Origin: Trichobilharzia regenti
Taxonomy: Eukaryota; Platyhelminthes; Trematoda; Strigeidida; Schistosomatidae
DNA: 64,000 bases
Assembly: GCA_944472135.2 (NCBI GenBank)
Contig: OX235268.1
Location: 8,252,589-8,316,588 of the forward strand
Direction of reading: 5' to 3'
A program made the position numbers and the translations under genes. Within the stretch, counting starts at the first letter, position 1; every line of letters begins with the position of its first letter. The notes beneath the pieces are model-generated. The model was given only the letters and a program-made list of their open reading frames with translations. It did not search any database and was not told where the DNA came from. Below are positions 3,657 through 61,164 of this stretch, piece after piece.

Positions 3657-6600
3657 TGGACGGTAAGTGAATATTTTTCAAAGCTTATTCACGGTTAATT
3701 CACCACACATGCGGGAATAATTTTATCAAACATATACAAATTGTACTGAAGTATTCAAACAATTCAGCAGTGCTCAGCCACTGTGTAATCAGATAGCATT
3801 AAAGATACATATGCAACAGTAAGCCTCAGTAGTTAGTTGTAAAGTGTAGCACATACGCACAGATTTTATGTAATTCAACTGGTGAATTCATTGTTGTGCC
3901 GGTGAACGGCTGTCTAGTAAATGATTAGACTGTGAGTGATCGGAAATCATTGTTGATTACTATCGAATATGTCATTTCGGATAATCTCCAGAAGGCTGTT
4001 GTTATGGTGATAGTGTCATTGCGAATGCAACCTCAAACGCAGATGACATTATTGAGTGGTTTACGTTAGCTGGCAAGTTGTCCAGCACCTTGGTTTTTTT
4101 GCTTAAATCTACTCGTCATGGTGAAAGTTATGTAACCACAAAAGAAATTATACGAGATTCAGGCACTCGCTACCAAGTGCTGGACTCTGATTTGTTCTTC
4201 AGCGAGAATAAGAGTGGGTATAAACTCATGACAATTGTGGAGAAGGAAAAACGTGTCGACATAACAATAGCCTTGTGTATGTGGTTTGATGCCGTGAACG
4301 AAAACACCAATTTTTCAGCGAACAATAATGCTCACATAGATGAGAAAGTAAACGATTGTGTCTATCTCCTCAGTCAAAGGTATTTCTCTATGGTATATAA
4401 AAGCTTGCGAATTGATCAAGAAGTGCCACAACAGATCATTCATAAATGCAGCAGTATGCGTTGAGCCGAATTAAGACGATGAACACACAATGTGTGAAGA
4501 TTGGCAATTACGGTACGTTTGTCCTCTCAATTCCAATATCAATTCACGTATTTTCAATGCATCTGAAATGTGAATTGAAGACTTCAAACTACATTCAGCC
4601 GATCTGAAACCACCTCACCTTAATTTTAGTTATGATAATTTTGAGACGTCCCACACGTTTCTCATCCTCAGTCATTGATAATACCAAAAATTGTTTGGTT
4701 TTAACACTATCCACGAGTTCATATTTTTTCAGTGGAAATTTTATCAGTTTCGAGTTTGATGAGTGCTGGTTAGCACTTGATAATTATTGGGAAATTAAAT
4801 TCAGCTTTTCATATCAGACCGATTTCTTTCGTCATACATGCAGAGGGTGAAAGAGTATCAGTGATATTACCTAACTGTTTTTCTACATGCATTAACAAAG
4901 GGATATTTGACGTGTTAAAAGTGAACACACAGGTTATTCACTGGATGTTTTATCGAATTAGGGATCCATGGAAAATCAATTTCAGATACACTTATGGTTG
5001 AAGCCCCTGAAGTCAAGAGGTCCTGTGAATAAGACCCTTTTGATTTTGAGCATGAAAGTTTCATCCACTTAATACTTCTGTATCAAGATTTGTTATATAA
5101 ATTTATATAAAATGCACACAATTAAAACTTACAATACAAATTTTACGTAATTTCAAATACCAGTGGTCTTGTATTATGCATTGTCAAAATGTAACTCAAT
5201 CAGTAATAGAAGGGCTGTAATCTGTAATGGCTGGTGATTTACCCATCATTTTAGTTTATTCTGCATTCCATCACCTCATTGTTCTGTATACAGTGATCTT
5301 CAATTTGAAGTAAGTACAAAAAGAGTTATTTCTCTAATGCACTTTCATTAAATGGATAGCAACCTTAAAAAGATGTACTATTAATACCGAAAACCATTAG
5401 TCTTGCCTATTTTCCGATCAACAAACATGTGTTGGGTGAAACCGGATATCTATGAGTTATTCTCTAAGAACTCCATCACACGCGGCATCAGTTTTTCAAC
5501 CTGTTTGAATAGTTTTTTGTGCAAGTATGTAAAAACAGTGTCTGTCACTAGTGCACTGCAACACTCCAGATTCCAAAGATATCTGTTCCAAGTAGATTGT
5601 TCTTGGATTTTGTTATGTGAATTCGATTGGCAATTTTTGATTGATGTGTTGGCGAATCACATATTCTAATGTAGTGGATTATATCGTGTGAGTATCAGTT
5701 GGTGGGAACATATTGCCCTAAATTATGAACTGACAAAAGTAGGAAGATATGCAATGATTCTACTGTGAATCCCATGAATTATCTAAAGAAACCCTCAATC
5801 AGCCGTGCGTAAAATATGTTCGTGAATTCTTTATGGCAATTTTGTGTTAAATTTGTATACTATGTAGAGAAATTATGACCATTAACGCATCAGTTTCCAT
5901 TTTGTGCGAGACGTTTTCATAGAGCATCACTAGCTCAGCGTACCTGCATTTTCCTGGCGTTAAGGACATTCTTGAATATAATCTGCATCTTACACTTTCT
6001 CTGAACTCTACGCTTTGTTGACAACTTTTTCAAGTCTATCCGCCTCATATGTGACTAAGTTTTGTGAAGTCAGCAGAAAATAAGGGTGTCTCATTTTTGA
6101 TTGTCTAAACCTTTTTAGTTTTCTTCAACTGTTTCAACAGTCATTCGGTGATATTCGATCATGCCTATTATAAACGTTGCACATTACGTTTTGGTAGACT
6201 TTATCCAAGAAGAGCCTGAATAACTGCAGGTATTCGAAGTCTGTATTTAATATTGCTTAACGTTGTTCATGAGAAAGACTTATGCAAAACCACTGAAACT
6301 GTCATACTTCCTTTATGATTCGAAAATCAGCGGTTTCTCTACCAAGATATTCTCATTCAAATTTGCTTTCTGTAGAAGCGATTCATTCACGTAGTGCAGT
6401 ATTGTGATGGTCAACTATACACTTGACTGTTCCTCAAGTTCCTGAAAATTAATCAGCATTTTCAATGATATACTTACGATGTCTGGAAGACTAGAACTAC
6501 AACAGTCACCATAATGTCACCATTTCATTTCCCCGGCAAAATGAGTAGATGAAAAGGATATACTGCCAATTATGAAAGAGAGCTTAGAAGAAAAATGTCC

Positions 6601-7907
6601 ACAAAAATTACTACCATGGCTCTATTCATGATTGGACATCATGTGTGAGTTTGTCTCCAGATGACAGACGGTGAAGGTGTCTGTGTTTAATATTTGTCTG
6701 GTGGAATATGCTGATCTCTTGTAAGTTTATTTTTTAAACCAAACGACACATTGATTTTTCATCCAACTATTAGGGAATTCCTTCTTGATATCTGGTGATT
6801 TTATTCGAGTATTCATACATCTCACTTCATTTTGATTTAAGTGGTTGTTTAGTTACTACGTGTGACTATACACTATGATGAAGACATGAAATTCAACACT
6901 GCAAAACTGTTATTTGTTAGAATTAAACTGCGCGAAATTCAAAACTAGTTCAGAGAATTCATACTCGAAAAAAGTTCTAAATTCAACCAAATCTACACCA
7001 GTCTACTTCATCTCTTCAATCCTTTGACTTTCCATTTGTAAAGTGATTTATCCATTTACTGAACAATTCTAGACGATCAGGTGGAGGAATTGTCTGGTTA
7101 ATTTATTATCTATCCTAAAGCATCACAGTATTTTGACAGGAATATAATACGGATGAACCCTAGCCTTAACGGTTTCACAGTAAATGGATCAAACCCTTCA
7201 AGTGGAACAAAACTTAAGAATCACTAATTTAATGCTCTATCTGAAATGAATAGAAAATGAGTTTGTCAGATCTATGTGAAGAAACTTCCTGGTTATTCGA
7301 CACGCATGGTGAATTCATAATATGTGGAAGTGATGTTTGAATTAGTGACTTTGATGTTCGAAAATCTGCAACCTATAAGGTTGGGCTTATCAATGTGCTC
7401 AAGTCTCAATAATTAATACAAAATTTATGTGAGTATCAAATAACTCTACATCTTAATACACAAATATTTGAAATACGCTTCCAGTTGTCTAAAAGTAACT
7501 TTGACAGGTATGGTGCACGTTAATCATTTCGCTGCTACCAATCACTAATGAAGTAAGTGCAAGCATGAAATCAAGCCTCGAAGCCTTCGAAGTGAGGTGA
7601 GTCTGTGTGCTTCAGATTAATCAGCGTAAAATCTAGTTGTCAGTTAGATATCAGCCAGAAACAAAAAGAATTACGAATATTCCAAAATATCTTCTATTTA
7701 TTTATTTATTTATTACATATTTACAAATAACGTTTGAAGGAGTTTGAATTGATTACATCGTTTTGATGTGTATAACGTTTTTGTAGGAAAGCCTCCTGTT
7801 ACCGACTAGTTGATACTTGGGGCTGCTTTTTAGATAAGCTGCCGCAAAATCTTGGAGGAAAGAGTGCGAACTGTTTAGAAACAACAACCGCGAGTGGGAC
7901 AGGATAA
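3657..7907 (+). pseudogene. Gene 0: micro-exon-type gene copy, first exon not found
   Basis: Four exons can be placed by comparison with intact copies: a 6-nt exon at 3657-3662 (tggacg, acceptor ttgaag, donor gtaagt), the 16-nt exon at 5294-5309, the 21-nt exon at 6774-6794 and the terminal exon at 7787-7907 (acceptor tttttgtag). They join in one frame and give an MD-VIFNL-KEFLLDIW core, then KASCYRLVDTWGCFLDKLPQ with the C-x8-C-x15-C cysteines and LGGK. The 21-nt exon donor is gtgatt instead of gtgagt, a weaker site. No signal-peptide exon like those at 21547, 39105 and 55994 is visible upstream, so this copy is probably headless or uses an unrecognised first exon. AATAAA lies at 7966-7971. 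Confidence 0.55.
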
Positions 7908-9003: not shown

Positions 9004-9016
9004 ATAATTTTCTTGT

Positions 9017-10125: not shown

Positions 10126-10219
10126 TGTTTTCAAAAGAATGCCCTCTGTACCCGAGTAAGTGAAACATGGGGTGCTATTAAGAAGCGTTCCCATTGCAGC
10201 TTGGAGGAAAACACAATAC
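10126..10219 (+). pseudogene. Decayed terminal exon of the micro-exon family
   Basis: Clear similarity to the terminal exon (ctctgtacccgagtaagtgaaacatgggg against the intact ctgtacccgaatggtagaaacatgggg at 17546), but the acceptor AG region is altered (ttttcaaaag), CGA-ATG has become a GAG-TAA stop and there is an indel before the LGGK part. It cannot be spliced in frame. A matching relic is at 46751-46832. Confidence 0.65.
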
Positions 10220-10456
10220 ATGTATAAATAAATAACTGAGAAAATTAGGTGATCAATAACATTTCAGGTTTGGGCATGCCAAAAGTCACGTCGTGAATTT
10301 TTACACAGGGCTAACGGTCGACGTTGATTGGGAGGATACCTGGTAACGAATGCAATCGTGATGATACTCACCAAATATGAAGTAAAATGTCTTCTAATCA
10401 AGAATACGACGTGTTTTTGTCATTGCAATGCATTGTGTTTGTAAACTGTGCATATT

Positions 10457-13160: not shown

Positions 13161-13306
13161 TTACATCACATTACACCGCACATTTCAATGAGAACGTAGT
13201 CAGTATTGTTTTCATTCACACTCAAGGAAAACTAAACAAGCCTCTCGAAGTGACGGGATTCAGTATTTCATTACTTGGATTGGTTACTATACTATTAACA
13301 CTTATT

Positions 13307-13538
13307 AAATTGAATTCTTGATTTTCCCGTCGATTGATTGGACCGAAGTGCTCAGTCTCAGGTTGACATGTCGGCTTCTTGTGCAGATGCTTCGATGATT
13401 TCTGGGTATTTAATTAGTATACATTAGTGGATGGTGGCTAGCAGACATCGGCGAAGCATCTGCACAAGAAGCTGACATGTCAACCTGAGACCGAGCACTT
13501 CGGTCCAATCAATCGATGGGAAAATCAAAAATTCAATT
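13307..13538. repeat. Long inverted repeat (about 86-bp arms, about 57-bp loop)
   Basis: Positions about 13307-13394 and 13452-13538 are near-perfect reverse complements (for example gattttcccgtcgattgatt against aatcaatcgatgggaaaatc). It could form a strong hairpin. A single-armed short version sits at 50162-50255. Confidence 0.8.
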
Positions 13539-13673
13539 CAGTAATTAATATGACCCGTTGCACAAGAGGTGGCTCTCGTGGCCCAAGTGGTCTAGTGGAT
13601 AACGCTTTGGCGTTTGAAACTATGGGTACTGGGTTCGAGCCTCAGTGGGAACATCATCACTCACTGAGAAATG

Positions 13674-13735
13674 CAGGTGCATCCAGCTGACGAGTCCCAA
13701 ATAGGACGAAATGCGCATCCTGGATTCCACTGCTA
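13674..13735 (+). ncRNA. Hammerhead ribozyme (Sm-alpha type)
   Basis: Seen in order: stem I strand atCCAG, core CTGACGA, stem II GTCC-caaata-GGAC, core GAAA, a very short stem III TGC/GCA, the cleavage triplet ATC and stem I return CTGGat. The core matches the CUGANGA/GAAA consensus (position 7 is free to vary) and the cleavage site fits the NUH rule. The published S. mansoni ribozyme has CGC/GCG in stem III, so TGC/GCA here is a compensatory pair. Self-cleavage in vitro is predicted, not shown. Confidence 0.85.
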
Positions 13736-14355
13736 GCCACCATCCACCAATTGTACACATACTATTAACACTTCTATTAAGCGAAGTCTATGGCACGTCT
13801 GACAAGGATAGTGACAGTGTCATACACTGTAAATACTGTTATGATTGTCATCACTCTATACTATGTATGCATCACTAGTTGATAATGTAGTCACAATAAG
13901 GTGAGCACTTGGTGTATGAAGTAAATGTGAATGGAGATGAACTTCCTTACAAAGGGTGAAATGTAAAAGAAACTTTACGTAGAGTAATTTCCAATAGCTT
14001 ATGTTTATTCATAGTGATAATATCTAACATCAAATGAGTAAGTTATGTGGGGATCAACCAGTTACAGTTGATTTCATACGTGAATGTTTCTTTTTAAATT
14101 TGGAAAGTGAAAGAATAGAACTTTTTGTAGAATAGACTGCATCCAGGTTATTCTACACTGACATTTTTGAACTTGTTTGTCAGTGAGCATTGAAGTTAAC
14201 CTCCTTTCAGTGAGTTCACTAATCCTCGACAAAGATATGTTTATGTATCAGGAGACGTAGTTCTTCTGAACGTATATGAAGTCGTTAGTTAACATCAACT
14301 GTGGAAACATTGTACATCAAATCAGTTTATTCTTCGTAGCACGCAACGCAGTATT

Positions 14356-14389
14356 AATATAAATATAAATAAATATATAAATATAAATA
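14356..14389. repeat. AT-rich simple repeat (ATAAAT)n
   Basis: Short low-complexity run of taaatataaataaatata type in the first large intron of the pseudogene, absent from the paralogous spot near 57320. Confidence 0.7.
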
Positions 14390-16364
14390 CTACCTTATCC
14401 TACCCTTAAAATAAGAGAAGAAAACGTGAAATGGTAGAAGGTAACAGCCGTTGGTCGCTATATTCTTCTGACGAATCAGAACAAAAATAGGAAATAGAAG
14501 TGTAAGAACACTGATCGTGTATTTCGACACAGGAGAGAGTGAAGCTATGTTAAGCAAGTTGAGAAGTTCTGTGAATATATTTATGCGATTTCGCGCAATA
14601 AATTGTTATCCATCAATCACTACTGTATCAATGCATGTCATTTAAAATCATCATATGTATTAGGGAATTTCATTCCACTATAGTATCCACCATATATCAC
14701 TTGTATTGATAATTCGACATTTTTAGAATATATGCGTTCTCACGTCATGCATTACTACAGAGTGCCCCATATACTGTTAGAAGCAGTACAGAATCCATTC
14801 ATTAATATTTTAACCATCGTTTTATTTCACGCTGTGATTCTCATCCAAAACTTCATTCCGTTCTTCCATTATTCTGTTTACAGTTATCTTCGATTTCAAG
14901 TAAGTACAATAAGAGTGACTTTTAAAACATTCTCACGGTTAAACATTCATCAATTTCTTCAGAACTTGTTTCAGTAATATGAAAACTAGATAAGTCTCTT
15001 ATTTATTGATAATTGAGGGACGTCACAGCGAAATATGGATTCCAAACTTTAAAGACATTTCTGAATCTAATCATTTTGCTGCACTTTGAACGCTGAGCTG
15101 GGATAAATTTTACCAGATTTGTATGAACTTTGATCAGGTTTTCTGAAATGCCTATAAATTGATCCGTTAATTACTTCTGAAATAACTTTGAGTCTTTTAT
15201 ACACGCCTTGTATCACATGTGATAACATTATTTCACGACTAACCGAAATAACTGCAGGTATTGGAAGTTAACCGATTGAAATCTTTTGACCTTGACGTAA
15301 AATTGGTTAACGTTCATAAAAACAGCTTAAGTGAAACTATTTTTAGGGCCATATACTCTCTTTTATTCAAATCTACATCGGTAGAATCCAAAAGGTATAT
15401 GCAGACTAAATCCTGCTTTCCGTAGAAATGATAGATGTACATATGGTAATCAGATGGTAATTGAATCATCCGACCATTCCCTGAATTACTAAATGCAGGT
15501 AATTAATTTCGTAATTGTTAAAGTGAGGACACTTTTACAAATAAAACAATAATGATCACTATCATGCCATTCTGCGAAATTCTATAACGGACACTTTTAA
15601 GACTGGAAAATATGTGAGATGTTGTCTTCAGATAACAAACGATGCGGCTGTCTACACTTATAATTATCAAACAAAATCCACAGAGAGAGAGTTTTTTTTC
15701 TAAATAAAATAGCGTATTACATTTGACTATTACATTAAATTGGCTGTTTCTTAAGTATGATTCGATGATCGCAACAGACATGTGGTTGACTGAATGCAAT
15801 CAACTGACTTACAGGTTAACATCATCATCATGTCTGAGAGAACATCCACTTTCGTTATCTCAGACTAGACACTTAGACAGCTTGACATATTCATAACCAT
15901 GTTTTGTATGTAAGCTTGCATTACCTAAGCAGAAATCTATCTTACTCCTAGAAAGTTTCTATTGGATATTTGGTGAGTTTATCTGAGGATTGATACATTC
16001 CAGTGCATTTTGGTGAAGGTTTTGATTAGTTCCCAGAGATGAACGAGTGCCACGAGAGAAGTATCTTTAAAGAGATGGAACTGCTATTCATCAGAATTAT
16101 TGACTAAATTTCCAGAATGTTGTTTCTCTGTTTCTCTACTATGGTGATTCGACGTCTAGACCATTTCCATCCGGTGGAATGAATCTATGGGCAGTTCAGG
16201 GTAGAATTAGCATTAATATCCATAGACACTAATTCGGAATCATTAGGGTTTTTAACTTAAACTACCCCTACTCCGCCTCTGCAATCTCTTGTCATTCCAC
16301 TTCGGGAAGTGACTGATTCACTGTCTGAAAGATCAAAATAGGTATAGGGAACACATTCAGCCTT

Positions 16365-17282
16365 ATTACTATTATATCCTTTCATTCCTGCGGGAACATA
16401 GGGCTTCAGCTGTGCATCTCCATTTCCTTCGGGTTTCTGCCAACGTTTTCACCCCGCTCAACGATTGCCCACACGTGTTCATCTCCTCTTCACATGGCCT
16501 CCTCCATGTCAACCTTGGACGACTAAATCGCCGCTTCCCTTTCGAGTTCCACTCGAGGAGTGGCTTGTATAGTGGTCTAAATTGATGGTTTGTTTCCTCA
16601 GAGTGTAGCTAATCCATCTCCATTTATTCCTGCCTATTTGTTTCACAATCGCTTCCTGTCGGGCTGGTTCACTCATCGTCAGAGATCCCTGTTGCTAATC
16701 CTTTCTGGCCAGCCATCTGATCTTAAGCAGTACTGAGCGAGGACAACTGTTGATGAAGGTTTGTAGTGTGTTTGAGATGCTCTTTTTGACACGCTGACTA
16801 AGTCTCTGATCTGTGTGGTAGCTCTGACTCCACATCGGAGTTGAAAATCCGGATCTTATTTTTGATGCTGAGTGCTGTTGTCCACCACACAGACTTGAGA
16901 GTCATGAAAGTTTGTCTTACTTTTCCGATTCTTGCTTTGATATCCTCGTCAGTTCCGTCCGTCCGTAGTTTAAATGATGCTTCCCAGGTCAGCAGATGAA
17001 GAAGGTTGTTTCTTTCAGGTTCCTCCTATTCATGCTGGTTGATTGTTGTCTCTTGATGCGATATTAGGCAACCAGCCTTTCTTACTTCCGTCTTCACTTT
17101 GGTGGATTCCGTCAGCTTACCGTCGTGAATTAATTGGCATGTAGCATTGTCATACAACTGTTGAATGGAATGTGTACTTGTTGGCGGCGACCCGTGGTAG
17201 CGAAGTGGTTACCAAATCACCACTCCATCGACCCTGTCGAAGGACATTTTCAAAGTCAGTGAAGTTGAGATAGAGGGTAAGA
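16365..17282 (-). mobile_element. RTE-type LINE fragment, internally deleted
   Basis: The 3' end of the element lies at about 16365 (tattactattatatcctttc, inverse of the AATAAT tail). Reading the minus strand gives the basic C-terminal region, the YLGS-like region and, after a deletion, part of the RT core (equivalent of FEKAFDSVDREVIW, near 17200-17280). Many frameshifts and stops; not functional. It lies in the last intron of pseudogene 1, between the 21-nt and terminal exons. Confidence 0.8.
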
Positions 17283-17653
17283 GTAATTATGACTTATTTT
17301 TTGCACGTTTTCAATTTCCTCACAACCGGTAACTGGCTGCGTAACTTTAAGTTCCTTATTAAGGTGCACACTTTACAGTGGAACCAATAGTAAAATCACA
17401 AGTATCAGTTGGATAGCAGTCAGAAATACCAACGACAATACTCAATGCATAATGCCCTTACTTATTTAATACTTAAAAAAAACTTTTGATGGAAATCAAA
17501 TTTATTGTATTGTTTTTACAAAACTTATTTTGCAGGTCAGCTTTCTGTACCCGAATGGTAGAAACATGGGGCTGCCTTTTAGATGGGCTGCCAGATAACC
17601 TTGGTGGAAAAATTCACTTATGCACAACTAAAATGAGTGAGAAAATTAAATAA

Positions 17654-21543: not shown

Positions 21544-24500
21544 ATGATGGGGTTTAGTATTTCACTACTTGGACTTTGTATCCTATTTCCAGAAATTCTA
21601 TTGAAAGAAGTCAACGGTACGTTTCAAAGAGCATTTTGTAAGATCAGTGACAGTGTCATTCATTGTTATACTCTGTTAAAATATTCTGACTGTCATCACA
21701 CTGCTCTACATGTCACTAACTGATGACATGGGCACAATCAATCTAAGATGGGGTGATTCAAGTAAATCGGAGGTAGACTGAACCCATGTGAAGACAGCTG
21801 AATATTCTACAGGTTGAAAGCGCTGGTATCGCTGAGAGAATTTCCTCTGTAACAGTTATTTCCACATATTGATTATATTCAACATCATGTAATTAGCTTA
21901 TGTAGGGATCAACTACCGAAATTAAATCTCATACACGACTTCCTCCAACCTGATGTATATGCGTCAATTTATTCACAGTTTCCTGCATTCCCTCCATAAT
22001 TTCTCGAGTCAGCAGCAAAAAGGTAAGTGACAGATAGTGACGAATTATACAAAACTGATTTATCAAGTACACGAACTTTTGCTTGTTAGTGATGAAGTTA
22101 AAGTGATACTTACAGTGTAAGACCTAAGTCGAACACAAAAAGTGACTTCATTTTTACGAATATGAGCACGGATTGATATCTGTTAGAGAAACATTGAAAA
22201 CCGAAAGAGAGTACTGGATAGTTGTTTCGTCCTAGTTTGGGACTCTTCATCAGTATGCAATCCACCGGGATTCGATTCCAGGACCTTCCGGTTACAAGGC
22301 GAGCTCGTAAACCATTAGGCCACTGGGACCCGATCCATTGGCTTTTGAATTCTAACTCCTGCTAACTTCTGGGTGCGCACTGTTGAAGAGTCCTAAACTA
22401 AGGCGAAACGGCTGCCCAGTATGCACTGATAATAAAAATTACCGTATTCTTCTATGAGAAATTCCAATGGTATTCAAAGTTAGGCTTCCTGTATCAGCAA
22501 TGAAGACCAAGACTCGATAGGTAACAGAAGTAGAAAACTGAAATTTTAAACTGATGGAGTAATGCCGTTCACTGACCATGCAGAATATCTCGAATTCAGT
22601 CAATGATAATCCAAATACCTGATGAATCATTAACACAGTACATGAATTCCTACATTTTGAAAAGTGATAGTCTCACAATCAATAATTTCCCCGTCATATT
22701 TTTCCTGCATATTCATAAATTTCAACAACATATAAGTACTTGATGCAGGAATCAACTACCGACATTGGATTTCATGCACGACTTCCTGTCAACTCATTTG
22801 GATGAGTCAATTCAACAATCTTTTCATGCATTTCCTCCATAATATTTCAGCTCAACAAGTCAGTAAGTGACAGCTTTTTAAAAGTTACACAAAATTGATA
22901 ATTCAAGTGCACTGACAACATATGACGAAACACCTGCTTAATAGTGAGGAAATTTAAAAAGTGCTAATATTCAGTCGAATTAAGAAAAATTTGTTCAATG
23001 ATTTGAGTCAGCAAGTAGGTTGTTCTGAGCTTGGATTTTAAAGCTGACTTTAAATCTTTAGCTCCAATTAACTGATATTCCCCATTAGAGATTCAGCCAT
23101 ACATCACTCAATGTTGAACCATGAATCGTCTAGTACCGGAAACATTAGTGAGGATAAAAACGCATCTTTGATTCAACTAAACGCAGACAAATTCACCTAA
23201 GTATCAGGTTTATGACGATGTGATTAGCCAATACTTAGATTCAGTTGTTATTTGACATAATTTACTGAGCTATGCCCGTGATCTTATACATTCTGATGGA
23301 AAGCCTTCATTCATGGAATTGATAAAAGTGATGAATTCACTCTATGACTATTCGTATGCTTTAGTGGAAAGCTGCCAGTAATTACACTAACTACACAATG
23401 TCAGAAACACTATTGAATTGAATAAGAGTTTCGTGAAAATCGAAGTCAGTAAAATGGATCCTTGGTGGTTGTCGAAACCTGAATTGTGGGTAACTGACAA
23501 AGTCGAATTCCTGCGTATTTGCAAGCGGAAACATCTACATTTGCATTGCCTACACGTTATCGAGTGACGAGGTGTCAATTGATTCACACCCTTCGACATT
23601 CTTTCCTTATTTGCCTACTTGAAGTGGAAGGTGAGTGAATATTTTTCAAAGTTTATTCATGGTTAATTCACGACACATGCGGATAGGATTTTATGAAAAA
23701 ATATACTTATTGTACTGAAGTATTCAAACAATTCAGCAGTACTCACTCACTGGGTAGTCAAATCGCATTAATGATTCATATGCAATAGTATTCCGCATTC
23801 TCGCTTTCTTAATACCATAGATAATAAGTAGCTAATTGTAAAGTGTAGCAAATACCCACATACTTTATGTATTTGAATTAGTTAATTCATTGTTGTGCCA
23901 GTAAAAGCCTGTCTAGTGAATGATTAGACTGTGAGTGAACGGAAACCACTGTTGATTACTATTGAATATGTCATTTCAAATAATCTCCAGAAGGCTGCTG
24001 TTAGGTTGATAGTGTCGATGCAGATGCTGACTCAAATGCAGATAATATTATTGATTGGTTAAAGTTAGACAGCAGGTTGTCGAGCACCTAGGAGTGGTGT
24101 GCCTAAATCTACTCGTCACTTGAAAAGTTGTGTAACCACAAAAAAAATTATATGAGATTCAGGCATTCACTACCAAGTCCTGGACTCTGATTTGTCCACC
24201 AGCGAGAATGAGATATGTGAAACAAAGACACACACAGGTTATTCACTGGATGTTTAATCGAATTCTGGGTCCATGGAAAATCAAATTTAGATACATATAG
24301 GGTCGGGGCTATTGAAGTCAAGAAGTCTTGTGAATACGCTCCTTTCTTGTTTTGATTACAGCTTGATTCCACACCGTATGTTTGGTACAGGTATGGAATT
24401 TTTAGCATGAATATCTCTAGCCCAAATTTCTCAGGCCGATCATAAATATAAGGTGTGCGTAGGCAGGGGATCGAACATCGCCGACCACGCACATGGTCTA

Positions 24501-39104: not shown

Positions 39105-42100
39105 ATGGGAATCAGTATTTCACAACTTGGATTCGTTATCGTATTTCTAACAATTCTATTAAATGAAGTCAATGGTACGTTTCAAAGAGTGTTTATGACA
39201 GCAATAACAGTTTCACATATGGTTATACTCTGTTGAAATATTCTAACTCTCATCAGACTACGCTAATTATCACTGTCTGGTGACATGGAAATAATTAGGC
39301 GAAGATGAGGTGTTTCAAGTAAATCTGAATTAGATTGAACCCATGTGAAGACGGCTGAATATTCTACAGGTTGAAAGTGATGGTATCACAGAGAGAATTC
39401 CTACAGCAACAGTTGTTTTCACATATTGATTATATTCAACACCACATAATGAGCTAATGTAAGGATCCGCTGCCGACATTTTATTTCATACACGACTTCC
39501 TTCTGAATAATTTGGATGTGTCACAGTCTATTTACAGTTTCCTGCATTCCCTCCATAATTTCTCAGGTCAGCAGCAAGCAGGTAAGTGAAAGATTTTTAA
39601 GAATAATACAAAACTGATTTATCAAGTACACAAACACCTGTTTGTTAGTGATGAAGTTAAAGTGATACTGAAAGTGTAATACCCAAGTCGAATACAAAAA
39701 CTTTTTTACGAATATGACCACGGATTGATATCAGTTAGGGAACCACTGAAAACCGCCAGAAGGTACTGTATAGCTGTTTTGATCTAGTTTGGGAATCATC
39801 GTTATCACGTCCCCACTGATAGGATTCGAACCCAGGATCTTCCAGTTGCTTGGCAAGCTCGTATACTATTCAGCCACCGGGATCTGATCTAATGGCAGAA
39901 GCATTCTAACTTGTGCCAGTTCGTGATTCGGCGCGACCACCGACCAGTGTCATCGGTGGAAAATGCATTCTCAAACTTGACTCAATAAAAACCCACTAGT
40001 CACGACTTCTCACTGGAATTCTTGGAAAATCCGTCAATTTTGTAGCAAGTCACTAGCGAGCATGAGATTAATTTTCATGAGTTCGTTTTTAGGGAGTATA
40101 TTTTTTTGCTTATGACCACGGCTACCTGAAATCCTTACAAAACAACTCTTCCCAGTGATTTGAGTCAACTGATAGGGTGTCCTGGTGCTGGATTTTGGGT
40201 TGAATTATAATCCTTACCTCCATGTTGCCGATATTCCTTTTTGAGATTCGGGGATGTATCACTCAGTGTTGGACCAGGAATAGGCTTTTACGGAAAAAAC
40301 ATGTGTATAAAAACTCACTACAGTTTTCTGAAAAGACAGAACAGTGTTCATGAAATAATGACCTCATATGTTTGGCTTGATTCTGGTAACGAAAACAGAA
40401 TTTTTCGAATTAAGTATGTATTATTGGAAATTTTGTTCAAAATGTCAGACTTATGGGAGACAAGAGATGCGTGTTCGTTATCATTTGTTTTTAATTTGCT
40501 GAAACTCAAGCCAGTCATTTCATTTTACATCAGTTAATTCATAAATTTTGCAGCGGTGCAGTACTACTGGTAATATAACTTATTCGTGTCTTTACATACA
40601 ATTAGAATCTTACAGGTTGGTTAGTCACTGAATGTCTTATGGAATCCAGGCAATACACGGAAAGATAATGCTAGCAAAACCGATGCTGTATATGTGTGGA
40701 AAATTTCATTTAGATAGAGAAGTGAGCGACGATGACCAAAAGCAAGTTAGGAATTCATGTGAAGTGCATTAATACTATTTTGAGAAATGACAAGTCATCC
40801 AGCTGTCGATGATTTATCAATGTTTTTTAAATACGGAATTTCATTTTAATAAAATACATCGATAATTTAACATAACTTTGAATATATGTGGCATCATTCC
40901 ATAAAAGATCCCAGTTTAGTTTTCGAAGGGATATAATATGCCATGAATAATGTTAATGACATCGTTTCATTTTATGCTGTGATCCCAAGCTTAAAATCCA
41001 TCCATTCTGTAACCTCCTTACTTTGTCTACAGTCGTTTTCAATTTGAGGTAAGTACAGCGAGATTTACTTTCAATGTTCTTTCAGTAAAATATTACTTAT
41101 TTTCAAAAAACATGTTCTGTTAGTCCAAAGTAAAATACTGAATGTTACACAGAAACGTTCACAGAACGTAAAAATGCCATTGTTTGCTTGCTAGAGGAAA
41201 CCTAATGTAGACCTTTTATTCATTGGATTCTTTCAGATATGATAGAGAAGATTTTTAGCTCAGATGGATGATTTTGATGTGGTTGTGTTCTATGAGCTGA
41301 ATGGTTGATTTCCAAAGCTTTCATCACCTTACTGGGTGACATCTTCAGCGCATACTTCAATTTCATGAAGTGAGATTTTAGATTTCTCCACAAGTTTATT
41401 AATCATCTCTCCTGGTGACCTTGGATGTGATTGGTTGTTTTTGTGTGCTTTCATACCTTCTAGGTTACTTGTATTGGAACTGACTGTTTCTTTGACTTGA
41501 ACTTTGACCCTTTGTGTATGAAGTTTCTTTCTTATTGGTTGATAAATTTTGTCTATCTCGATGTGTCTATTGATTGATGATTCACTGGAATGACAAGCTA
41601 CTAATATTCTCTAGCATTCTTGTTGTTTCCTCTGTCTAATATTTGAACAATGATTGTCCCATTCGAATTGATGTCCGTAGTTGTCTGTGTTTAGTGAAAT
41701 GAGGGAGTGGATATCATGTCTTTTGACAGCTAGCCTGTGTTCGTGGATACGAAGACGAAGCGGACGTCCACTTTGACCAATGTAGTGTTTTCGCAGTTGT
41801 TGCAATTTATTTTGTGGATTATTTTGGTTTTATCTTCTTTCGCTGTTGAGTCTTTTGTTTGACACATATCGAGCTCAGCCAAGTGATTTCATTGATTTGT
41901 GTGCTATGTCTAGACCTAAAGTTTTCAAGAGTCTTGTATTTATTTCTGAGATATCGTTTATATATGGTAAGGCGATTTACTTTGTCCTTTCCTTGGATGC
42001 TTTTGGTTTGATAGGTTGGCTTGGGGCTTTATGTCTTTTGATGACATTCGTGGATATCCATTCTTTTGGAAGACGTCCATGAGATAATTTTCTTCAATTT

Positions 42101-44703
42101 TCCTTAAGATGGGAGTGTTGCAATGAGTCCTTGCTCTCTTGAATAGTGTTTGTATGCAATTCCTTTTGTGTGTTATTGGGTTGTTGCTGTTGTAATTCAG
42201 TATTTGGTCTGTTTGAGTTGATTTCCTATACACTTGAGTTTCTAATTCTCCTGTAGTTGTTCGCCTGACTAAGACGTCCAAAAATGGTATTTTGTTCTCG
42301 GATTCCTCTTCTCTTGTGAGTTTGATGTCGTTGAAGACGTTGTTTTTTAAGCTGTGAGTAATTCGTATGCAACAGCTTTACAAACTCTTAAGACATCTGT
42401 GCTCCAGGACTTTGTTTCCAGAATCAGCTGGATTATTCAGTGTTCTATGTCTTGATTGTTTTTAGTTTCTAATGTAGTGGATTAAATTGTTTGACTATCA
42501 GTTGGCGTGGAAAATGAAATTAAATGAGAAATTGACGATAGAATGATAACATAAATTTATTAATAACAGAGAACTTTTTTAACTATCATAACCAAAAACA
42601 CCTACCAGTCGTGTTCATAGTATGTTCGTGAAATTTTTTGCAGCAACTGCATGATATATTTGTACATTCAGTAGACAAATTGTGACCACCACCATCATCG
42701 GTTTCCATATTTTCAGAGATATGTCTGTGTGTGTAGAGGGTACAACCAGCTTAGCCTCACTCATTGCTTTTACCCACGTTGAGGACATTTGATGAATGTA
42801 ACCATAATCATTATGTCACACTCTAAATTTTACAAATCTATCCATCTTAACTGTGACCAAGTTCTGTGAAGTAAATGAGGTACAGCATTTTCTTTTATTC
42901 CATAGTGTAAAATCTTCCGTTTTCCTTATTTTGGATAATCGGATTACAGTTGGAACACTGTTGATGTTTTTATACACGTTACATACCATATTTGATAAAA
43001 ATTATTCGAGAAACGCCAAAACAACTGCATGTATTTAAAATTTATTTCACCGGTGGGATGCTCTTGATCTAGACTTAAAATTGGTCAGCGTCTCATAAAT
43101 TACTGCAAACATTTACCAGCATTATCAATCATATACTAAAGACGCTTAGAAAACGAGAAATACAACGCTCACCATCATGCTTTCGTTGCCTTTCAGCAAC
43201 AAAACGACTTGATGAAGATGCGATATTGTCAACTATAGAATACAACTCAGAGAAAAGTTGTCCACACAAATTTCTTTCGACATTCCTACCACAGACCTAT
43301 TCAAGACTGGATAATGTGTAAATGCGTTTGTCTCCCGGTAGTAAACGGTGTTGCTGTTTACATTTGAATTTTGCTGATGGAAACCACCGATCACTTGTAC
43401 AGCTTAATTTCTCAATCAAACAACAGACTGATTTTGCATCGTTATTTTCGAATTGGCTTCTCATGAAATCCAGTGTGACACTAGAGTGAATCATCATTAG
43501 ATTTATTGAATATTCAGCTGAATTGTTCGATGATCATGACTGACATGTGACTGAGATACTTCAGTTACTTCATGCACAACTGGACGGCCTGCAGTGAATA
43601 GACAACTGTCTTTTTGAAATCGTTATCGGTCACCTAGCCCTTTTTTGTACATAATGTATACGATTTCTAAACATGAATCTATCAAACTCTTAGAGATTAC
43701 CTTCTGGATATCTGGTGAGTTCATTCAAGTATTCATACCTCACAAAGCATTTTGATATTCGTTTTCGATGAATAAGCATAGGTGACTAAATGCTATGACG
43801 AAGATGTCATTCACTTACTGAACGATTCTTACAACCAAAATGTCTGATTTCATCATAAAAAATCCGAATAATGTGATACAGTTACTTACAAGTTGAACAA
43901 CAGGAGTTAGAACAGGTGGAGGCTTTGTCTGCTCAATTTACTATTCATCCTAACGCATCACAATATTTAGACAATAATTTACTGGGAATTCTCCCCTAGT
44001 CCTAAGTGTTTCTGGGAAGATGGATTTAACTCTTTACCTTGAAAATACATATGAATCCCTAAATCGACTGTCGATCTCAAATAACTAGCAAATGAGTTTG
44101 TAACATCTGAGTGAAGAAACCTCCTGATAATTGAAACGAATAGTTGAGTCATAATATGTGGAAGTGATATTCGTATTAGTGACTTTGATATCAGATAATC
44201 TGAAAATTTTAAGGTTAGGCTTATCAATATGCTCAATCCTCAATAATAAGGCAAACCTGATCTGAGTATTAAATAACTCCACATTTCAATACAAAAACAT
44301 TTGAGGGACGCATAAAGATGTCTTGAAGTAACTTTGACAGATATGGTGCACGTTAATCATTTCACTGCTACCAGTCGAGCCTCATACTCCGAAGTGAGGT
44401 TAGTCAGTGTGCTTCAGATTTAACAGCGTATTGTCACAGGTGTCAGTTGGATGACAGCCGGAAACAAGAAGTATAAGAAACATTTCAAAATGTTCTTTTA
44501 TTTATTTATTGAATATTTACAAACAACTGATGAAGGAATTCGAATTGATTGCATCTTTTTATGTGTGTAACTTTGTTTGCAGGAGAGCCTTCTGTTACCG
44601 AATGGTCCAAACATGGGGCTGCTTCTTAGATTGGCTGTCGCCAGATCTTGGAGGAAAGAATTCCACATGCTTAGCTAGAGCACGTTCAGGTTCAGGAGGA
44701 TAA
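39105..44703 (+). CDS. Gene 3: small secreted micro-exon-type protein
   Basis: Inferred exons: 39105-39174 (70 nt), 39567-39581 (15 nt, gtcagcagcaagcag), 41033-41048 (16 nt), 43694-43714 (21 nt), 44583-44703 (121 nt). Every border is AG/GT (donors gtacgt, gtaagt, gtaagt, gtgagt). The joined frame is open for 80 codons. Residues 1-24 form a signal peptide (MGISISQLGFVIVFLTILLN, then EVNG). The mature peptide starts about QQQAVVFNLRDYLLDIW, then RAFCYRMVQTWGCFLDWLS with C-x8-C-x15-C, LGGK and a glycine- and serine-rich end. Three cysteines leave one unpaired, so a dimer is possible (inference). Introns hold a SINE (39763) and a Penelope element (about 41290). AATAAA at 44747. This is the cleanest copy. 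I assign it to the schistosome micro-exon type by architecture, not by name. Confidence 0.7.
39763..39965 (-). mobile_element. tRNA-like SINE, same family as 22206
   Basis: On the minus strand: gatcccggtggctgaatagt (A-box region) and ctgggttcgaatcctatcag (B box). One arm with the hammerhead-like string is left at about 39763-39805 (degenerate). It sits at the same point of the intron as the copy in gene 2, right after a shared gatatc(a/t)gttag stretch. Confidence 0.65.
41611..41805 (-). pseudogene. Penelope GIY-YIG endonuclease segment
   Basis: The frame reads HYIGQSGRPLRLRIHEHRLA, then a run with HDIHSLISLN and HQFEWDNHCSNI. This fits the YIG-to-His part of the Penelope endonuclease. The GIY half lies upstream in another frame, if present. 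Confidence 0.7.
41958..42281 (-). pseudogene. Penelope reverse transcriptase, C-terminal part
   Basis: The frame reads MDVLVRRTTTGELETQVYRK, then STQTDQILNYNSNNPITHKR, then IQTLFKRARTHCNT. The upstream sequence (about 42282-42310) adds ENKIPFLDV in the same frame. FLDVL, VYRK-T-TD-L and HK---TL--RA are hallmarks of the Penelope RT thumb region. The catalytic YxDD part is not present. Confidence 0.8.
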
Positions 44704-46740: not shown

Positions 46741-46750
46741 GCTTTACGAA

Positions 46751-46832
46751 ACTGTTTTTCAAGTATGCCTGTGAACATGAGGCTGCTATTTAGGTGCGTT
46801 CCCACTGAAGCTTGAAGGAAAACACAATACGT
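46751..46832 (+). pseudogene. Decayed terminal exon of the micro-exon family
   Basis: A relic matching 10126-10219, shortened by a deletion around the first cysteine block (caagtatgcctgtgaacatg, then aggctgctatttag). The acceptor is lost and the frame is broken. Confidence 0.6.
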
Positions 46833-46953
46833 GTACAACTATATAACTGAGAAAATTGAGTGATCACTTACGTTTTAGGTTTGTCTATGCCAGCACTGGG
46901 CTAACCGCCGACTTTGATTGGGAGGATAACTGTTAACCATTGGACTCGTGATG

Positions 46954-47275: not shown

Positions 47276-47301
47276 GTGAGGTCACAAAAGCTATCAGTAA
47301 T

Positions 47302-53737: not shown

Positions 53738-53748
53738 CAGAGCACTTT

Positions 53749-55889: not shown

Positions 55890-55897
55890 ATGCAAAC
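55890..55897 (+). promoter_or_regulatory. Conserved ATGCAAAC octamer upstream of gene 4
   Basis: It lies 104 bases before the ATG at 55994, in the block shared by all first exons (cagacatgtaatgcaaac, acaccacattacacc). Confidence 0.3.
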
Positions 55898-55993
55898 TTA
55901 CACCACATTACACCACACATTTCAATGAGAACGTAGTCATTTTTTTTGGTTTTCATTCACACTCAAAGAAAACCAAACAAGCACCTCGAAGTG

Positions 55994-58900
55994 ATGGGAT
56001 TCAGAATTTCACCACTTAGGTTTGTTACTATATTATTAACACTTCTATTGAATGAAGTCAGCGGTAAGTCTGACAAGCGTAGTGAATTTGTATTATGGTC
56101 ATACTCTGTAAATACTATTCTCACTGTCATCACTCTCTACTATGCATCACTAGTTAATTATGTAGTCACTAGCAAAGCCATCACATGGTGTATGAAGTAA
56201 TTGTGAACGGGGATGAACTACCGTAGAAACGGTGAAATATCACAGGGATTATCAAGCAAAGTAACTTCACGTAGAGTAATTTTCCGTAGCTGATGTTTAT
56301 TCATGCTGATAATATCTAACATCATTCGATAAGTTCTGTGGGGATCAACCAGTGACATTCTTTATAAATTTGGGAAGGGGAAGAATAGACATTTGTGTAC
56401 AATAAACTAGATCCACGTTTGTCAGTGAAGATTGAAGCAGCCCTCCCTTCAGTGAGTTTACTAATCCTCGGCGCAGATTTGTTTAAGTATGAAATGTACG
56501 ACAACGTTGTTATTCTGAACAGAAATGAAGCCATCAGTTAACGTCGAAGAAGAAGGAGCTCTTTGCTTTTGACTTGATACATTCGTCTGAAAAACGTCTA
56601 ACAAGATTATAAAAATAGTTATAACATTATACTTATACTTATACTTTAGTCAAAATATAACACAAATACCTCTAACTATCAAATGTGAGAATTTAAACTG
56701 AACTGGATAATAACTGATGAAAAAACGAGTGAGGTAAATGGCTGTGTTGACAGTGATTGAAATGGAGTCAGGCCTTCCCACAATAACTTTCTTCTAAAGC
56801 AGAGAATTACTAGGCACTCTGAACGATGATTGACTGACGAAGGCAAAAGCAACTCAGATATTTGCAAGTGCAAATATTCACATTTGCATTCCTCACATGC
56901 TCAGGAATATCGATCGAGGCGTCAATTCATTCATACCTTCCTGCATTCTCTCGCTTATTTTCCAGGTCAGGATGGAGGTAAGTGAATCCTTTGAAAATTT
57001 TGACAAGCATAATTTATCAAACAAACTGACAGCAGGTGGCAAAACACCTACTTGCTGGGATTTATGCATTTCAGAAGTACCCACTTTACCAGTCAGATAG
57101 AACGTTGCACTAGTGAATTGAATACACCTATGATTACTATCGAATTTAATTCCTTATTAGTTTGTTTCTCATTCAGTCAATGGGGATTTTAGTAATTGCT
57201 TGTGTTTCAACACTCTACTTGAATTCAGCGAAAATTCGAAATCTCACCTGTGTTGTGAGGTCTGAAACTCAAGTCACCGCTTCATATCAGATCAATTTAT
57301 TCTACGAAGCACACAGCACTACAGTAATAATAATAAAATCACCTTATCCTACACTTACAATAACACAAGAGAATGTGGCATGATAGAAGGTGACAGAGAT
57401 GATGGCCACTGCATTCTTCTAACGAATCAACACAAAAATAGGAAGGAAAACTGACGGAACACTCATCGTGTAATTCAACACAGGAGGGGGCGATGCTGTG
57501 TTAAGCAAGTTGAGAAGTTCTGTGTATACATTTATGCGATTTTGTGCAATAAAGTGTCATCCATTTATCAGTTCTTTATCAACCCATGTTATTTAAAATA
57601 ATCCTATGTATTAGGGGAATTCATTCGAATATAGTGTCCACATTTAAAATTTGTATTGATATTTTCACATTTTTTCGGACATGTACGATTTCATGTCGTT
57701 CATCATTGCATAACGCCTCATTTATTGTTGGAAGCAATATAGAACACACTGAATAATATTTTAACCATCGTTTCATTTCACGCTGTGATTCTTATCGAGA
57801 ATTTCATTCCGTTGTTCCATTATTCTGTTTACAGTTGTCTTTGATTTGAAGTAAGTACAACAAGAGTTACTTTTTAAATGTTTTCTCCGTGAAAATGCAT
57901 CAGTTTATTCAGAACGTGGCTCATTAATACGAAAACTAGATAAGTCTCAGGTTAATTCTAAACTATAAAAACGTATCCCTGTGAATGACTTGGAATGAGT
58001 CCACATTTATGTCCTTTATTCCAAAGAGTGGAACTAAATTTAGGCTGATTTTTCAAAGAGAAATTCATCAAATTCTTCGAACTAATAATTCTACCAGCTT
58101 ACAATGAGTGATATGCTCTAAACCAATGTGAGCTGTTTACCATGTCATTATGTGAATGAGTGGCATCCATTTGTACATTCTATCACTGCAGATATCTATT
58201 GTACATTCTGAGTTCTTAGATTTCTGTTTAGGAATTATACTGACAACTGAGCAACGTCAAGGGAAAATATGGATTCCTTACTTTAAAGACATTTCTGAAG
58301 CTGTGCTAAAACATTTAGTAGATCTCTCTCACCTGTGGTCAGGGTTTCTGAAATGCGCATTAACGGATCAGTGAACCACTTCTGCAATAATTTTGATTCT
58401 TTTTTATGCAAGTCTTGATAAAACTTATTCAAGACTTACCAAAATAACCGCGGGTATTCTAAGTCAACCAACCGGTCACTCTTGACATAGACTTTAAATT
58501 GGTTAACGTTCATACAAACACCTTAATTAAAACAATTTCTATGACCATATTCTTTCACTTTTATTCAAATCTGCATCGGTAGAATTCATAAATAGATAGG
58601 CAAACTAAATCCTGCTTTCCGGTAGAAATAATAAATGTACATATGGTAATCTGATGGTTATTAATTCCTCTGACTACTCCTTGAATGCAAGTAATAAATT
58701 TCAGAAATGTTAAAGTGAGGACACGTAGAACAACAAAACATTAATGGTCAATATCATGCCACCTTGCGAAAATTCTATAACGGACAGCTTCAATATTGGA
58801 TAAAATGTTCGATTTTGTCTCCAGATGACAAATGACATATCTGCCTTCACGTACAATTTTCTGACAAAATCCACAGACAATGCGTATTACTTTTCAGCAC

Positions 58901-61164
58901 TCATACTTAGCATGAAATTGGTTGCTTCTTAAGTCTAGCATGAAAGTAAAGTAAATTAGAATTGGAAATGTCAATGCGTCAATTGATTCGATGATCGTGA
59001 AAGACATGTGACTGACTGAATGCAATCAACTGACATACAGGTTAACATCTCCATCATGTCGAAGTGAACATCTTTGATTACCCCACACTAGATAGTTTGC
59101 ATAAAACGGCCGTTCACGTGAAAGCTTGACATATTCATAACCATTTTTTGTACATAAGCTTGCAATATCTAAGCAGAAATGTATCTTACTCACAGGAAAT
59201 TGCTTCTGGATATTTGGTGAGTTTATTTGAGTACTGATCCTATGCAGTGTACTTCAATGAAGGTTTGGATTAACTGCTAGATATGAACAAGTGCCACGAG
59301 AAACGTATCTTCAAGGAGATGAAATTGCTATTCATTGGAATTATTAATTAAATTTCTCGTCAACGGATTTAAGTAAACCCAAAATGTTGTTCCTCTGCAG
59401 AAATATAGGAAGCTGCTAGGGTGATTCGACGTACAGACCGTTTCCATCCAGTGCAGTTAATCTAAGGGCAGTTCAGAATTTAATTTGCAGAGAAAAACAC
59501 TGATTCTAATTCGGAATCATTTAGGAATATTTTTAACTTAAATTATCCCACTCCACTTCTGCAGTCTTTTAACATTCCACTTCGAGAATTGACTGATTCA
59601 CTGTTTGAAATATCCAAGCAAGCTTAGGGGGCAAATTCAGCTTTAATCTACAAAATATCTGATTTAATGACAAGTGATTCGAATAATGTGATACGGTCAC
59701 TTGTCAGTCGTGATATATCGATCAGCATATAAGGAGGATATGCGTCGGTGGCACATCGGTTAGGACGCTCGCCGACCATGCACATGGTCCGGGGTTTGAT
59801 CCCAGGCCGACGAACTCCTTTACCTCGCTAAGCCACAAATAATGCTGATAAAAGGGAAAGGTTGGGGATGAGGCTAGCAACTTCATCCTGTAAAATAAAC
59901 ACTGCTACAGAAACTTCAAGCCACTAGCTTGAAGCCCTATGTTCCAATGGGAACATGATGGAAAAATTATTATTATATAAGGAGGATAACTGGAGTCTTA
60001 AGGACTTTAGAGAAGATAGATGCAAAATTCTACCTTATAATATACTGAAGTGTTATTATTGATGTGGAAGTTACATTTGAGAATAAACTAACTTAACAGT
60101 TTACACTTAAAAATTTCAGGAACGTTTTTAATATACTAAAAATAATTCTGACTGATAAAATGCACGTTTTCGATACCATCACTAACCGTAACTAGCTGCG
60201 TTCCTTCAATTTTTGTATGACGGTGTGTCCAAAAGTTTCCCTCGAATGTATCAGAGTAAAATCACAGGTGTCAAAAGGACTATTATTATTGTTCCCTTGG
60301 GTTCCTAGTGGAACCTAGGGCTTCAAATGCACGTCACCACTTGCTTCTGTCTTGTTGTTGGTTGGTTATTTTCATCAACTCCGTCTTGTCTATGTTCACT
60401 TGGAGTCCTATCTTCGCCAGCTTCTTCTTCGACCAGTTTGTCGGTCAATTATTGCTTGTTAGTCTTCGATTTTGTGTGGCATCAACCATAAAGCATCCAC
60501 ACGCGAAATCCAGGTCTTCTAGTTTCTTGAGTCGGTCCAGGGTATTCCTGTCTTCTCGTTTCCCACTGTCTGAGGCATAATCCAGTCCACCACAATTAGG
60601 AAAATCATTGGTGATAATAAGCCAGCACCCTTGTCTGACTCGTGTGTTTACTCCAAACGCCTTGCTGAGTTTTCTGTTGTGGATCACTTGACATTAGCCG
60701 CTATTGTACGGCTGATGCATAATGTTGATGAATTTTTAGGGTACGCCGTAGTACTCGAGTAATTTCCAAATTACTTCGCAATCAACGCTGTCTGTCGAAG
60801 GCTTTTCCAAAGTCTATAAATTTGAGTAAACGGGTTTGATTGCTATTCCATGCTTTGTTCTGTGATGATGATGTCTAGAGTTGCAATTTGGTCGGAACAT
60901 GACTTGCCTGTCCTGAATTCAGGTCAATAGGAAAGCAGTTAGAAGCACGAATGATAATGCATAATGCTTTTAGTTATCTGATATTTACAAAAAACTAAGG
61001 GAGGAATTTAAATTTATTATTTTGCTTTACGAAACTGATTTTGCAGGTCGGCTTTCTGTACCCGAATGGCAGAAACATGGGGATGCCTTTTAGATGGGCT
61101 GCCAAATAAACTTGGTGGAAAAGATCACATATGCACAGCTAATCTGAGTGAGAAACTTAAATAA
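55994..61164 (+). CDS. Gene 4: small secreted micro-exon-type protein
   Basis: Inferred exons: 55994-56063 (70 nt), 56966-56977 (12 nt, gtcaggatggag), 57845-57860 (16 nt), 59196-59216 (21 nt), 61047-61164 (118 nt). Donors are gtaagt, gtaagt, gtaagt, gtgagt; acceptors ttttccag, tttacag, ctcacag, ttttgcag. The joined frame is open for 78 codons. Signal peptide MGFRISPLRFVTILLTLLLN plus EVSG; mature part QDGVVFDLKKLLLDIW, then SAFCTRMAETWGCLLDGLP with C-x8-C-x15-C, LGGK and a charged tail ending SEKLK. This CTR type differs from genes 2 and 3 in the core and tail. The stop lies inside AATAAA (61160-61165); a second AATAAA is at 61284-61289. The last intron holds a composite SINE and an RTE fragment. 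Function unknown; secretion is the only well-supported property. Confidence 0.7.
56626..56646. repeat. (ATACTT)n short tandem repeat
   Basis: Three to four units of atactt in the first intron of gene 4. Confidence 0.7.
59741..59974 (+). mobile_element. Composite SINE: tRNA head joined to RTE ends
   Basis: A 234-bp insert with a perfect 14-bp duplication atataaggaggata (59727-59740 and 59975-59988). It is built of three parts: the tRNA-like head of the SINE family (tgcgtcggtggcac to ggccgacga, B-box-like ggtttgatccc); a stretch like the RTE 5' leader (gaggctagcaacttc, ctacagaaacttcaa, inverse of 30195-30260); and the RTE 3' end (gaagccctatgttcc, tgggaacatgatgg) with an ATTATTATT tail. The RTE 3' end suggests mobilisation by the RTE machinery. 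Confidence 0.85.
60278..60922 (-). mobile_element. RTE-type LINE fragment, internally deleted
   Basis: Minus strand: the RT core (FEKAFDS-equivalent to FADD-equivalent, about 60460-60922) is joined to the last 80 bases of the element (gttcccttgggttcctagtg, 60290-60350), with the C-terminal domain missing. The FADD box is disrupted. It sits about 125 bases before the terminal exon of gene 4. Confidence 0.8.

Follow-up and report, generated by a model that had tools for sequence, protein, structure and literature searches.

Micro-exon genes (MEGs) supply blood flukes with a distinctive repertoire of secreted proteins and are often missed by gene finders (PMC4671649). In the layout set out in Wilson 2015, 5' and 3' exons flank a centre of micro-exons, and the signal peptide is mostly encoded by the 5' exon (PMC4671649). 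MEGs have been defined, in Philippsen 2015 and in a 2021 review, as genes in which very small symmetric exons (no more than 36 bp) make up most of the coding region (PMC4350168). The rule of Olson 2020 asks for seven or more exons, of which half or more are micro-exons (divisible by three and <70 nt), and for a run of four or more micro-exons (PMC7653826). In several MEG families, though not all, the genes lie in tandem, no more than 50 kb apart (PMC4350168). MEG products are presumed to act on the host.

A window of 64,000 nucleotides from contig OX235268.1 of Trichobilharzia regenti, the whole stretch of DNA that was analysed, holds six units of one gene family in tandem within 61 kb, all on the + strand and with neighbours within 50 kb, as in the clustered MEG families. 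Three units are intact (g3, 21544-31271; g4, 39105-44703; g5, 55994-61164) and three are partial or broken (g0, g1 and g2); there are also two relic last exons. Retroelements surround the array units, and a tRNA scan of the window returned none. The features are as follows, with the exons of a unit numbered E1 to E5.

261..381, + strand: g0 last exon E5, with AG acceptor, frame open to the stop and AATAAA 59 nt past the stop (remaining g0 exons fall upstream of the window start)
3657..3662, + strand: g1 6-nt micro-exon, E2c type, homologous to 23625-23630
5294..5309, + strand: g1 16-nt exon E3
6774..6794, + strand: g1 21-nt exon E4
7787..7907, + strand: g1 last exon E5
10135..10230, + strand: relic last exon of a third, diverged type, with internal stop
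13250..17653, + strand: g2, broken unit; recognisable exons E3 (14884-14899), E4 (15952-15972) and E5 (17536-17653)
21544..21616, + strand: g3 first exon E1, apparent signal peptide
22013..22022, + strand: g3 E2a-like segment, probably unused by splicing since the available AG acceptors give it a length not divisible by three
22851..22862, + strand: g3 12-nt micro-exon E2b, which duplicates the E2a region
23625..23630, + strand: g3 6-nt micro-exon E2c
24787..24802, + strand: g3 16-nt exon E3
26797..26817, + strand: g3 21-nt exon E4, putative cassette by analogy with P0004/P0007 (see below)
31151..31271, + strand: g3 last exon E5 including stop
39105..39174, + strand: g4 E1
39567..39581, + strand: g4 15-nt micro-exon E2, whose residues occur in P0001
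41033..41048, + strand: g4 E3
43694..43714, + strand: g4 E4
44583..44703, + strand: g4 E5 including stop
46760..46850, + strand: relic last exon of the third, diverged type
55994..56063, + strand: g5 E1
56966..56977, + strand: g5 12-nt micro-exon E2
57835..57850, + strand: g5 E3
59196..59216, + strand: g5 E4
61047..61164, + strand: g5 E5 including stop

The exons measure 73 (70 counted from the second ATG), 6 or 12, 16, 21 and 121 nt in g3; 70, 15, 16, 21 and 121 nt in g4; and 70, 12, 16, 21 and 118 nt in g5. AG/GT borders are present at the exons of all three units and, when joined in silico, each of the three reads open from ATG to stop. This bears out the preliminary description of the array, which listed recurring segments of 70, 6-15, 16, 21 and 118-121 nt. 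The products have 78 residues in g3 (80 with the 12-nt exon), 80 in g4 and 78 in g5, within the 78-81 residues first proposed; g3 with both E2 exons would exceed that range at 82. The claim of a constant C-x8-C-x15-C pattern also held, in 3/3 window proteins and in all eight database relatives found. An extra cysteine occurs in the signal region of g3 and of the relative P0008. Unlike the 16-nt E3, E4 and the five in-frame forms of E2 (6, 12, 6, 15 and 12 nt) all have lengths divisible by three. Identity between units in exon versus flank is 0.76 versus 0.57 for E1, 0.78 versus 0.57 for E3, 0.77 versus 0.61 for E4 and 0.70 versus 0.65 for E5. In all six last exons the coding frame is the sole stop-free frame, and in 6/6 units an AATAAA is found either across the stop or 44-59 nt past it.

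Of two profile searches, the first listed 7 proteins and the second, which scored the best 7992 candidates by shared words, listed 8. The relatives among the matches listed are seven T. regenti proteins (P0001-P0007; A0AA85J5Q6, A0AA85J5R3, A0AA85J4T0, A0AA85IZD6, A0AA85J7Y7, A0AA85J703 and A0AA85IY45, all unnamed) and one from Heterobilharzia americana (P0008), all of which may be gene predictions and not sequenced transcripts; none of the matches listed in either search is named as Schistosoma. They share with the array the cysteine spacing, the core WGC/FGC and LGG, and the blocks of the T. regenti proteins correspond to array exons; compared as proteins, they differ in signal peptides, E2 residues and tails. 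P0001 equals g4 exactly over the last 60 residues, across the E1/E2, E2/E3, E3/E4 and E4/E5 junctions, but departs from it at six of the 24 aligned residues nearest the N-terminus; none of the window's first exons gives a good match to this part of P0001. Thus, the window may represent another haplotype or strain, or P0001 may derive from a near-copy. Among the matches listed, g4 is the only one of the three intact units with a near-exact copy, the best identities being 71% for g3 and 65% for g5. P0007 is P0004 minus exactly EFLLDIW, the seven-residue block that E4 encodes; P0003 has no E4 block either. As two T. regenti proteins, albeit possibly predicted ones, differ by exactly these residues, E4 looks like a cassette. 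As the database proteins share its junctions, its cysteine spacing and the E4-length difference, the splicing model is very likely correct. A PDB sequence search returned no relative, Pfam gave one weak match (DUF5453, E 0.015) from one of six members, which was discounted, and a scan of bacterial and archaeal contigs with a P0001 pattern gave 141 pattern matches, 0 confirmed, which says little about flukes.

The reading we favour, with a probability of roughly 0.6, is that the array is a lineage-restricted, tandemly duplicated MEG-like family of secreted schistosomatid proteins, whose micro-exons build one amphipathic helix. E1 would encode the secretion signal; the N-terminus that it encodes is hydrophobic by eye, AlphaFold2 places a low-confidence helix there, and one record is named 'Secreted protein', so a signal peptide is apparent and the products are presumably secreted. 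The optional E2 exon or exons (6-15 nt, phase 1-1) would vary the mature N-terminus, the obligatory E3 (phase 1 to 2) would fix the frame, and the cassette E4 (phase 2-2) would contribute seven residues, or two helical turns. E5 would carry the conserved cysteine core plus a variable tail, and one helix would run from E3 through E4 into the start of E5, with a length of about 29 residues, or 22 if E4 is skipped. In keeping with this, the hydrophobic moment is 0.42-0.52 over the stretch chosen as helix in 10/10 sequences (shuffle p 0.002-0.017; P0008 left out), and AlphaFold2 draws a single helix from E3 to the start of E5 in both models, at low confidence (mean pLDDT 54 and 57). Unlike strongly charged lytic helices, this one is near-neutral, with a charge of -1 to +1 across its best 18 residues. 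By analogy with other amphipathic MEG products it may act by binding membranes or host proteins, E4 inclusion may tune the activity of the peptide, and the core, with its odd cysteine count, would permit one intramolecular disulfide plus dimerisation.

A stronger form of the favoured reading, which we put forward tentatively and think less probable, is that this is an undescribed family of Trichobilharzia and Heterobilharzia, with no Schistosoma relative listed, in which the 21-nt cassette adds or removes exactly two turns of the helix. Splicing would then switch membrane- or partner-binding reach whilst keeping the hydrophobic face and the cysteine core in register. No description of the family came to light among the papers listed in the literature searches. 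Bird schistosomes cause cercarial dermatitis in people, and this array gives them an apparently secreted family of their own that can be studied; the E4-skipping pair makes the long-standing question of how micro-exon skipping affects function addressable with two peptides.

Whether the array belongs among the MEGs depends on the definition used. It shares with the class 5' and 3' exons around micro-exons, an apparent signal peptide, small products, apparently skippable symmetric exons, tandem clustering and nearby retroelements (PMC4671649, PMC4350168, PMC10526429), and coding flanks of 70-73 and 118-121 nt around central exons of 6-21 nt follow the Wilson 2015 layout (PMC4671649). It differs in its obligatory asymmetric 16-nt exon, in having the bulk of the mature protein in one last exon, and in the minor coding share of its micro-exons: those of up to 36 nt are symmetric in two of three cases (three of four in the longer g3 form) and provide just 18-22% of coding bases, far from most of the coding region (PMC4350168). 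By the Olson 2020 rule, two of five coding exons are micro-exons (three of six in the longer g3 form), five or six coding exons fall below the seven required, and runs reach at most two because E3 is not divisible by three (PMC7653826). The preliminary description of a MEG family, perhaps an undescribed subfamily, stands in part, as regards a tandem schistosomatid family of small, apparently secreted, micro-exon-built proteins. As the array, judged by its coding exons, falls outside both of these definitions and no sequence link to a numbered MEG family emerged, 'MEG-like family' is better stated than 'subfamily of MEG'. The array is a form with a conserved three-cysteine core in a single large last exon, in which micro-exons merely trim a helix, and it raises the question of whether MEG-type variation was derived from such simpler genes.

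An unlikely alternative, which overlaps the favoured reading, is that these are diverged members of an existing numbered family (e.g. MEG-2, MEG-8/9, MEG-15 or MEG-26), novel in host genus alone. The general gene architecture is that of MEGs 26-32 (PMC4671649), and divergence too fast for homology searches is one published MEG scenario (PMC5825161). With MEG-8 and MEG-9 the array shares a phase-2 last exon and an amphipathic helix, and for these MEGs too orthologues have been reported from both Trichobilharzia and Heterobilharzia (PMC5825161, PMC12998952). MEG-8.2, however, counts 15 micro-exons among its 17 exons (PMC12998952), and its conserved residues are missing from the array: W-x-L-F-x3-F-L in the last exon was found in 0/6 proteins tested, and comparison with each of the three MEG-8.2 helices of S. 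mansoni gave no similarity beyond chance (shuffle p at least 0.10 in 15/15 comparisons), which gives no support to MEG-8/9 membership. MEG-26, compared by its published description, likewise encodes short peptides that are secreted and contain an amphipathic helix, has species-specific duplications and is present in T. regenti; it is set apart by a described net charge beyond 3 (PMC5825161). Six of the seven motifs given by Nedvedova 2023 were tested, and each matched 0/10 proteins, which gives no support to red or blue clade membership (PMC10526429). The comparison with MEG families proposed with the preliminary description thus yielded, by motif and by search, no sequence link to a numbered family, and neither profile search listed a protein named Schistosoma.

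We also think it improbable, to a similar degree, that these are ordinary small secreted-peptide genes whose short exons are constitutive and unrelated to MEG-type variation. The few coding exons and the small coding share of the micro-exons would fit this, and S. mansoni meg-8.2 exon skipping, seen in 1/10 cDNA clones, may itself be minor (PMC12998952); against it, g3 carries a duplicated E2, the optional exons all have lengths divisible by three, and P0004/P0007 and P0003 suggest E4 skipping among database proteins.

Far less probable is a decaying array in which most of the units no longer function and open frames persist as remnants. Decay is visible in the two relic last exons, in g1 (3657-7907), where a search for the first exon found none, and in g2, whose first exon lacks a start codon and is interrupted by inserted sequence at about 13316-13758. 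Three units are nonetheless fully open, g4 has its exact 60-residue match in a T. regenti protein, and dN/dS is below 1 in 15/15 pairs of last-exon cores; the core is under purifying selection. For E1, dN/dS is 1.11 in one of three pairs.

Chance finds of short exons are easy, but an artefact of choosing AG/GT borders by eye is ruled out for practical purposes by shuffling bases within exons, which left the joins open in just 0.55%, 0.66% and 0.36% of shuffles for the three intact units, and by independent proteins with the same junctions, unless those database models lack transcript support.

The forkhead promoter signature reported for esophageal-gland genes showed no clear enrichment: it was counted 2, 1, 4 and 2 times where 1.3-1.5 occurrences were expected, and g4 alone had the motif in its strict form.

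The 64-kb window is flatworm-type DNA that contains retroelements. Self-comparison reveals old duplications whose pieces are about 65-89% identical, at offsets of about 17.6, 20, 23, 37 and 43 kb, among others. Inside these duplications, five splice-bounded segments (exon types E1 to E5) keep a single order on the + strand each time they recur, bearing out the constant order given in the preliminary description. In a pattern search of the window, E3 (16 nt) and E4 (21 nt) each occur once per unit in g1-g5, the last five of six tandem units, on the + strand, and are absent from the - strand. Six last exons (E5) were located, and a translated search recovered two extra ones, diverged and damaged. 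Judged from the sequence, the array is a real multi-copy family, with three of the six units in view (g3, 21544-31271; g4, 39105-44703; g5, 55994-61164) intact.

The earlier claim that joined units stay open from ATG to stop also holds, as the joined exons of g3, g4 and g5 contain no internal stop. Their exons measure 73 or 70 nt (E1), 6-15 (E2), 16 (E3), 21 (E4) and 118-121 (E5), with introns of 392-4333 nt. We put the probability that this predicted exon structure is correct at about 95%. As the lengths of E2 and E4 are divisible by three, every combination of their inclusion and skipping would preserve the frame; the length of E3 is not, making its inclusion obligatory. In g3 the E2 region is duplicated (copies 71% identical in self-comparison), so that a 12-nt E2, a 6-nt E2 or the two together could be used; an additional E2-like segment is out of frame given the AG acceptors present.

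After within-exon base shuffling only 0.36-0.66% of joins stay open, although the figures for g3, g4 and g5 are not independent, the units being related. The sole open frame is the coding frame in all six last exons. Identity between units is higher in exons than in flanks (60 nt, minus 8 nt at splice sites): 0.76 versus 0.57 for E1, 0.78 versus 0.57 for E3, 0.77 versus 0.61 for E4 and 0.70 versus 0.65 for E5. Across the 27 opening codons of E5, all 15 pairs give dN/dS values of 0.20-0.76, and visual inspection shows a variable tail beyond the third cysteine; for E1, three pairs give 0.39, 0.56 and 1.11. AATAAA accompanies every unit, overlapping the stop in g2 and g5 and lying 44-59 nt 3' of it in g0, g1, g3 and g4. 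The units share conserved sequence over about 270 bp upstream of 21544, 39105, 55994 and 13250, which may be a promoter; a forkhead motif shows no clear excess in these four sequences.

With the g4 product as query, the first database search returned three candidates, all from T. regenti. A six-sequence profile (one sequence approximate) found seven T. regenti proteins among 1280 candidates, and an eight-sequence profile (7992 candidates scored) at least eight proteins, adding one from Heterobilharzia americana (E 8e-20). T. regenti, a bird schistosome, is the closest named organism. The constant C-x8-C-x15-C pattern noted earlier is present in the three window proteins and eight relatives. 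One database protein, P0001, is identical to g4 across the last 60 residues, spanning all four exon junctions, yet differs at 6 of 24 aligned residues in the signal region (g4 E1, 39105-39174). This could reflect exchange or separate evolution of the first exon. P0007 equals P0004 minus EFLLDIW, precisely the E4 block, and P0003 likewise lacks it. No close database copy was found of g3 or g5, the best identities being about 71% (g3, approximate query string) and 65% (g5).

The family had been read as micro-exon genes (MEGs). This reading is partly supported. The layout agrees with the description in PMC4671649: two flanking exons around a micro-exon centre, an apparent signal in the first exon and a small product. 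Membership depends on the definition. In PMC4350168 and PMC8293314, most of a MEG coding region consists of very small symmetric exons, whereas here micro-exons make up only 18-22% of coding bases; the family also falls outside the counting rule given in PMC7653826. It is therefore not filed as a MEG member, though working like one. According to PMC6362228, MEG transcripts of T. szidati and T. regenti were found through similarity to six reference MEG sequences, so the present family would probably be missing from that set.

The 29-residue stretch (22 without E4) encoded by E3, E4 and the first half of E5, its ends chosen by hand, has a hydrophobic moment of 0.42-0.52 in 10 of 10 sequences tested, and both AlphaFold2 models predict a single helix here at low confidence. 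Seven residues amount to 700 degrees of helix, two turns minus 20, so by this arithmetic E4 skipping would give a shorter amphipathic helix, hardly turned and with its hydrophobic face nearly in place. Amphipathic helices of S. mansoni MEG-8.2 lyse host blood cells (PMC12998952). The family helix is near neutral in charge and sequence comparison detected no relationship to those of MEG-8.2, so binding to a membrane or host protein is proposed by analogy only, and is possible rather than probable.

Joining was confined to the intact units; the damaged ones are g0, g1 and g2. g0 runs off the edge of the window, searches for a first exon of g1 found none, and the first exon of g2 is without a start codon and split by an insertion carrying the first of two ribozymes.

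13681-13725, + strand, type I hammerhead ribozyme (Rfam, 69.1 bits), within the insertion splitting the g2 first exon
22211-22256, - strand, type I hammerhead ribozyme (Rfam, 34.7 bits; gathering score 34), between two of the g3 E2 segments

Type I hammerhead elements are typical of schistosome SINE-like repeats. Other features lie in or between the units.

27931-30226, - strand, non-LTR retroelement fragments with reverse transcriptase and endonuclease domains, within the final g3 intron
33912-34145 and 34525-34759, two copies of an inverted repeat, with 89% identity across 235 nt in self-comparison
41961-42377, - strand, open frame of 139 codons inside one of the g4 introns, its sub-threshold Pfam match probably spurious
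47248-48830, + strand, reverse-transcriptase pieces
54336-55456, + strand, reverse-transcriptase pieces

In self-comparison, the stretch at 53.7-55.5 kb matches 27101-28825 in antisense with 88% identity.
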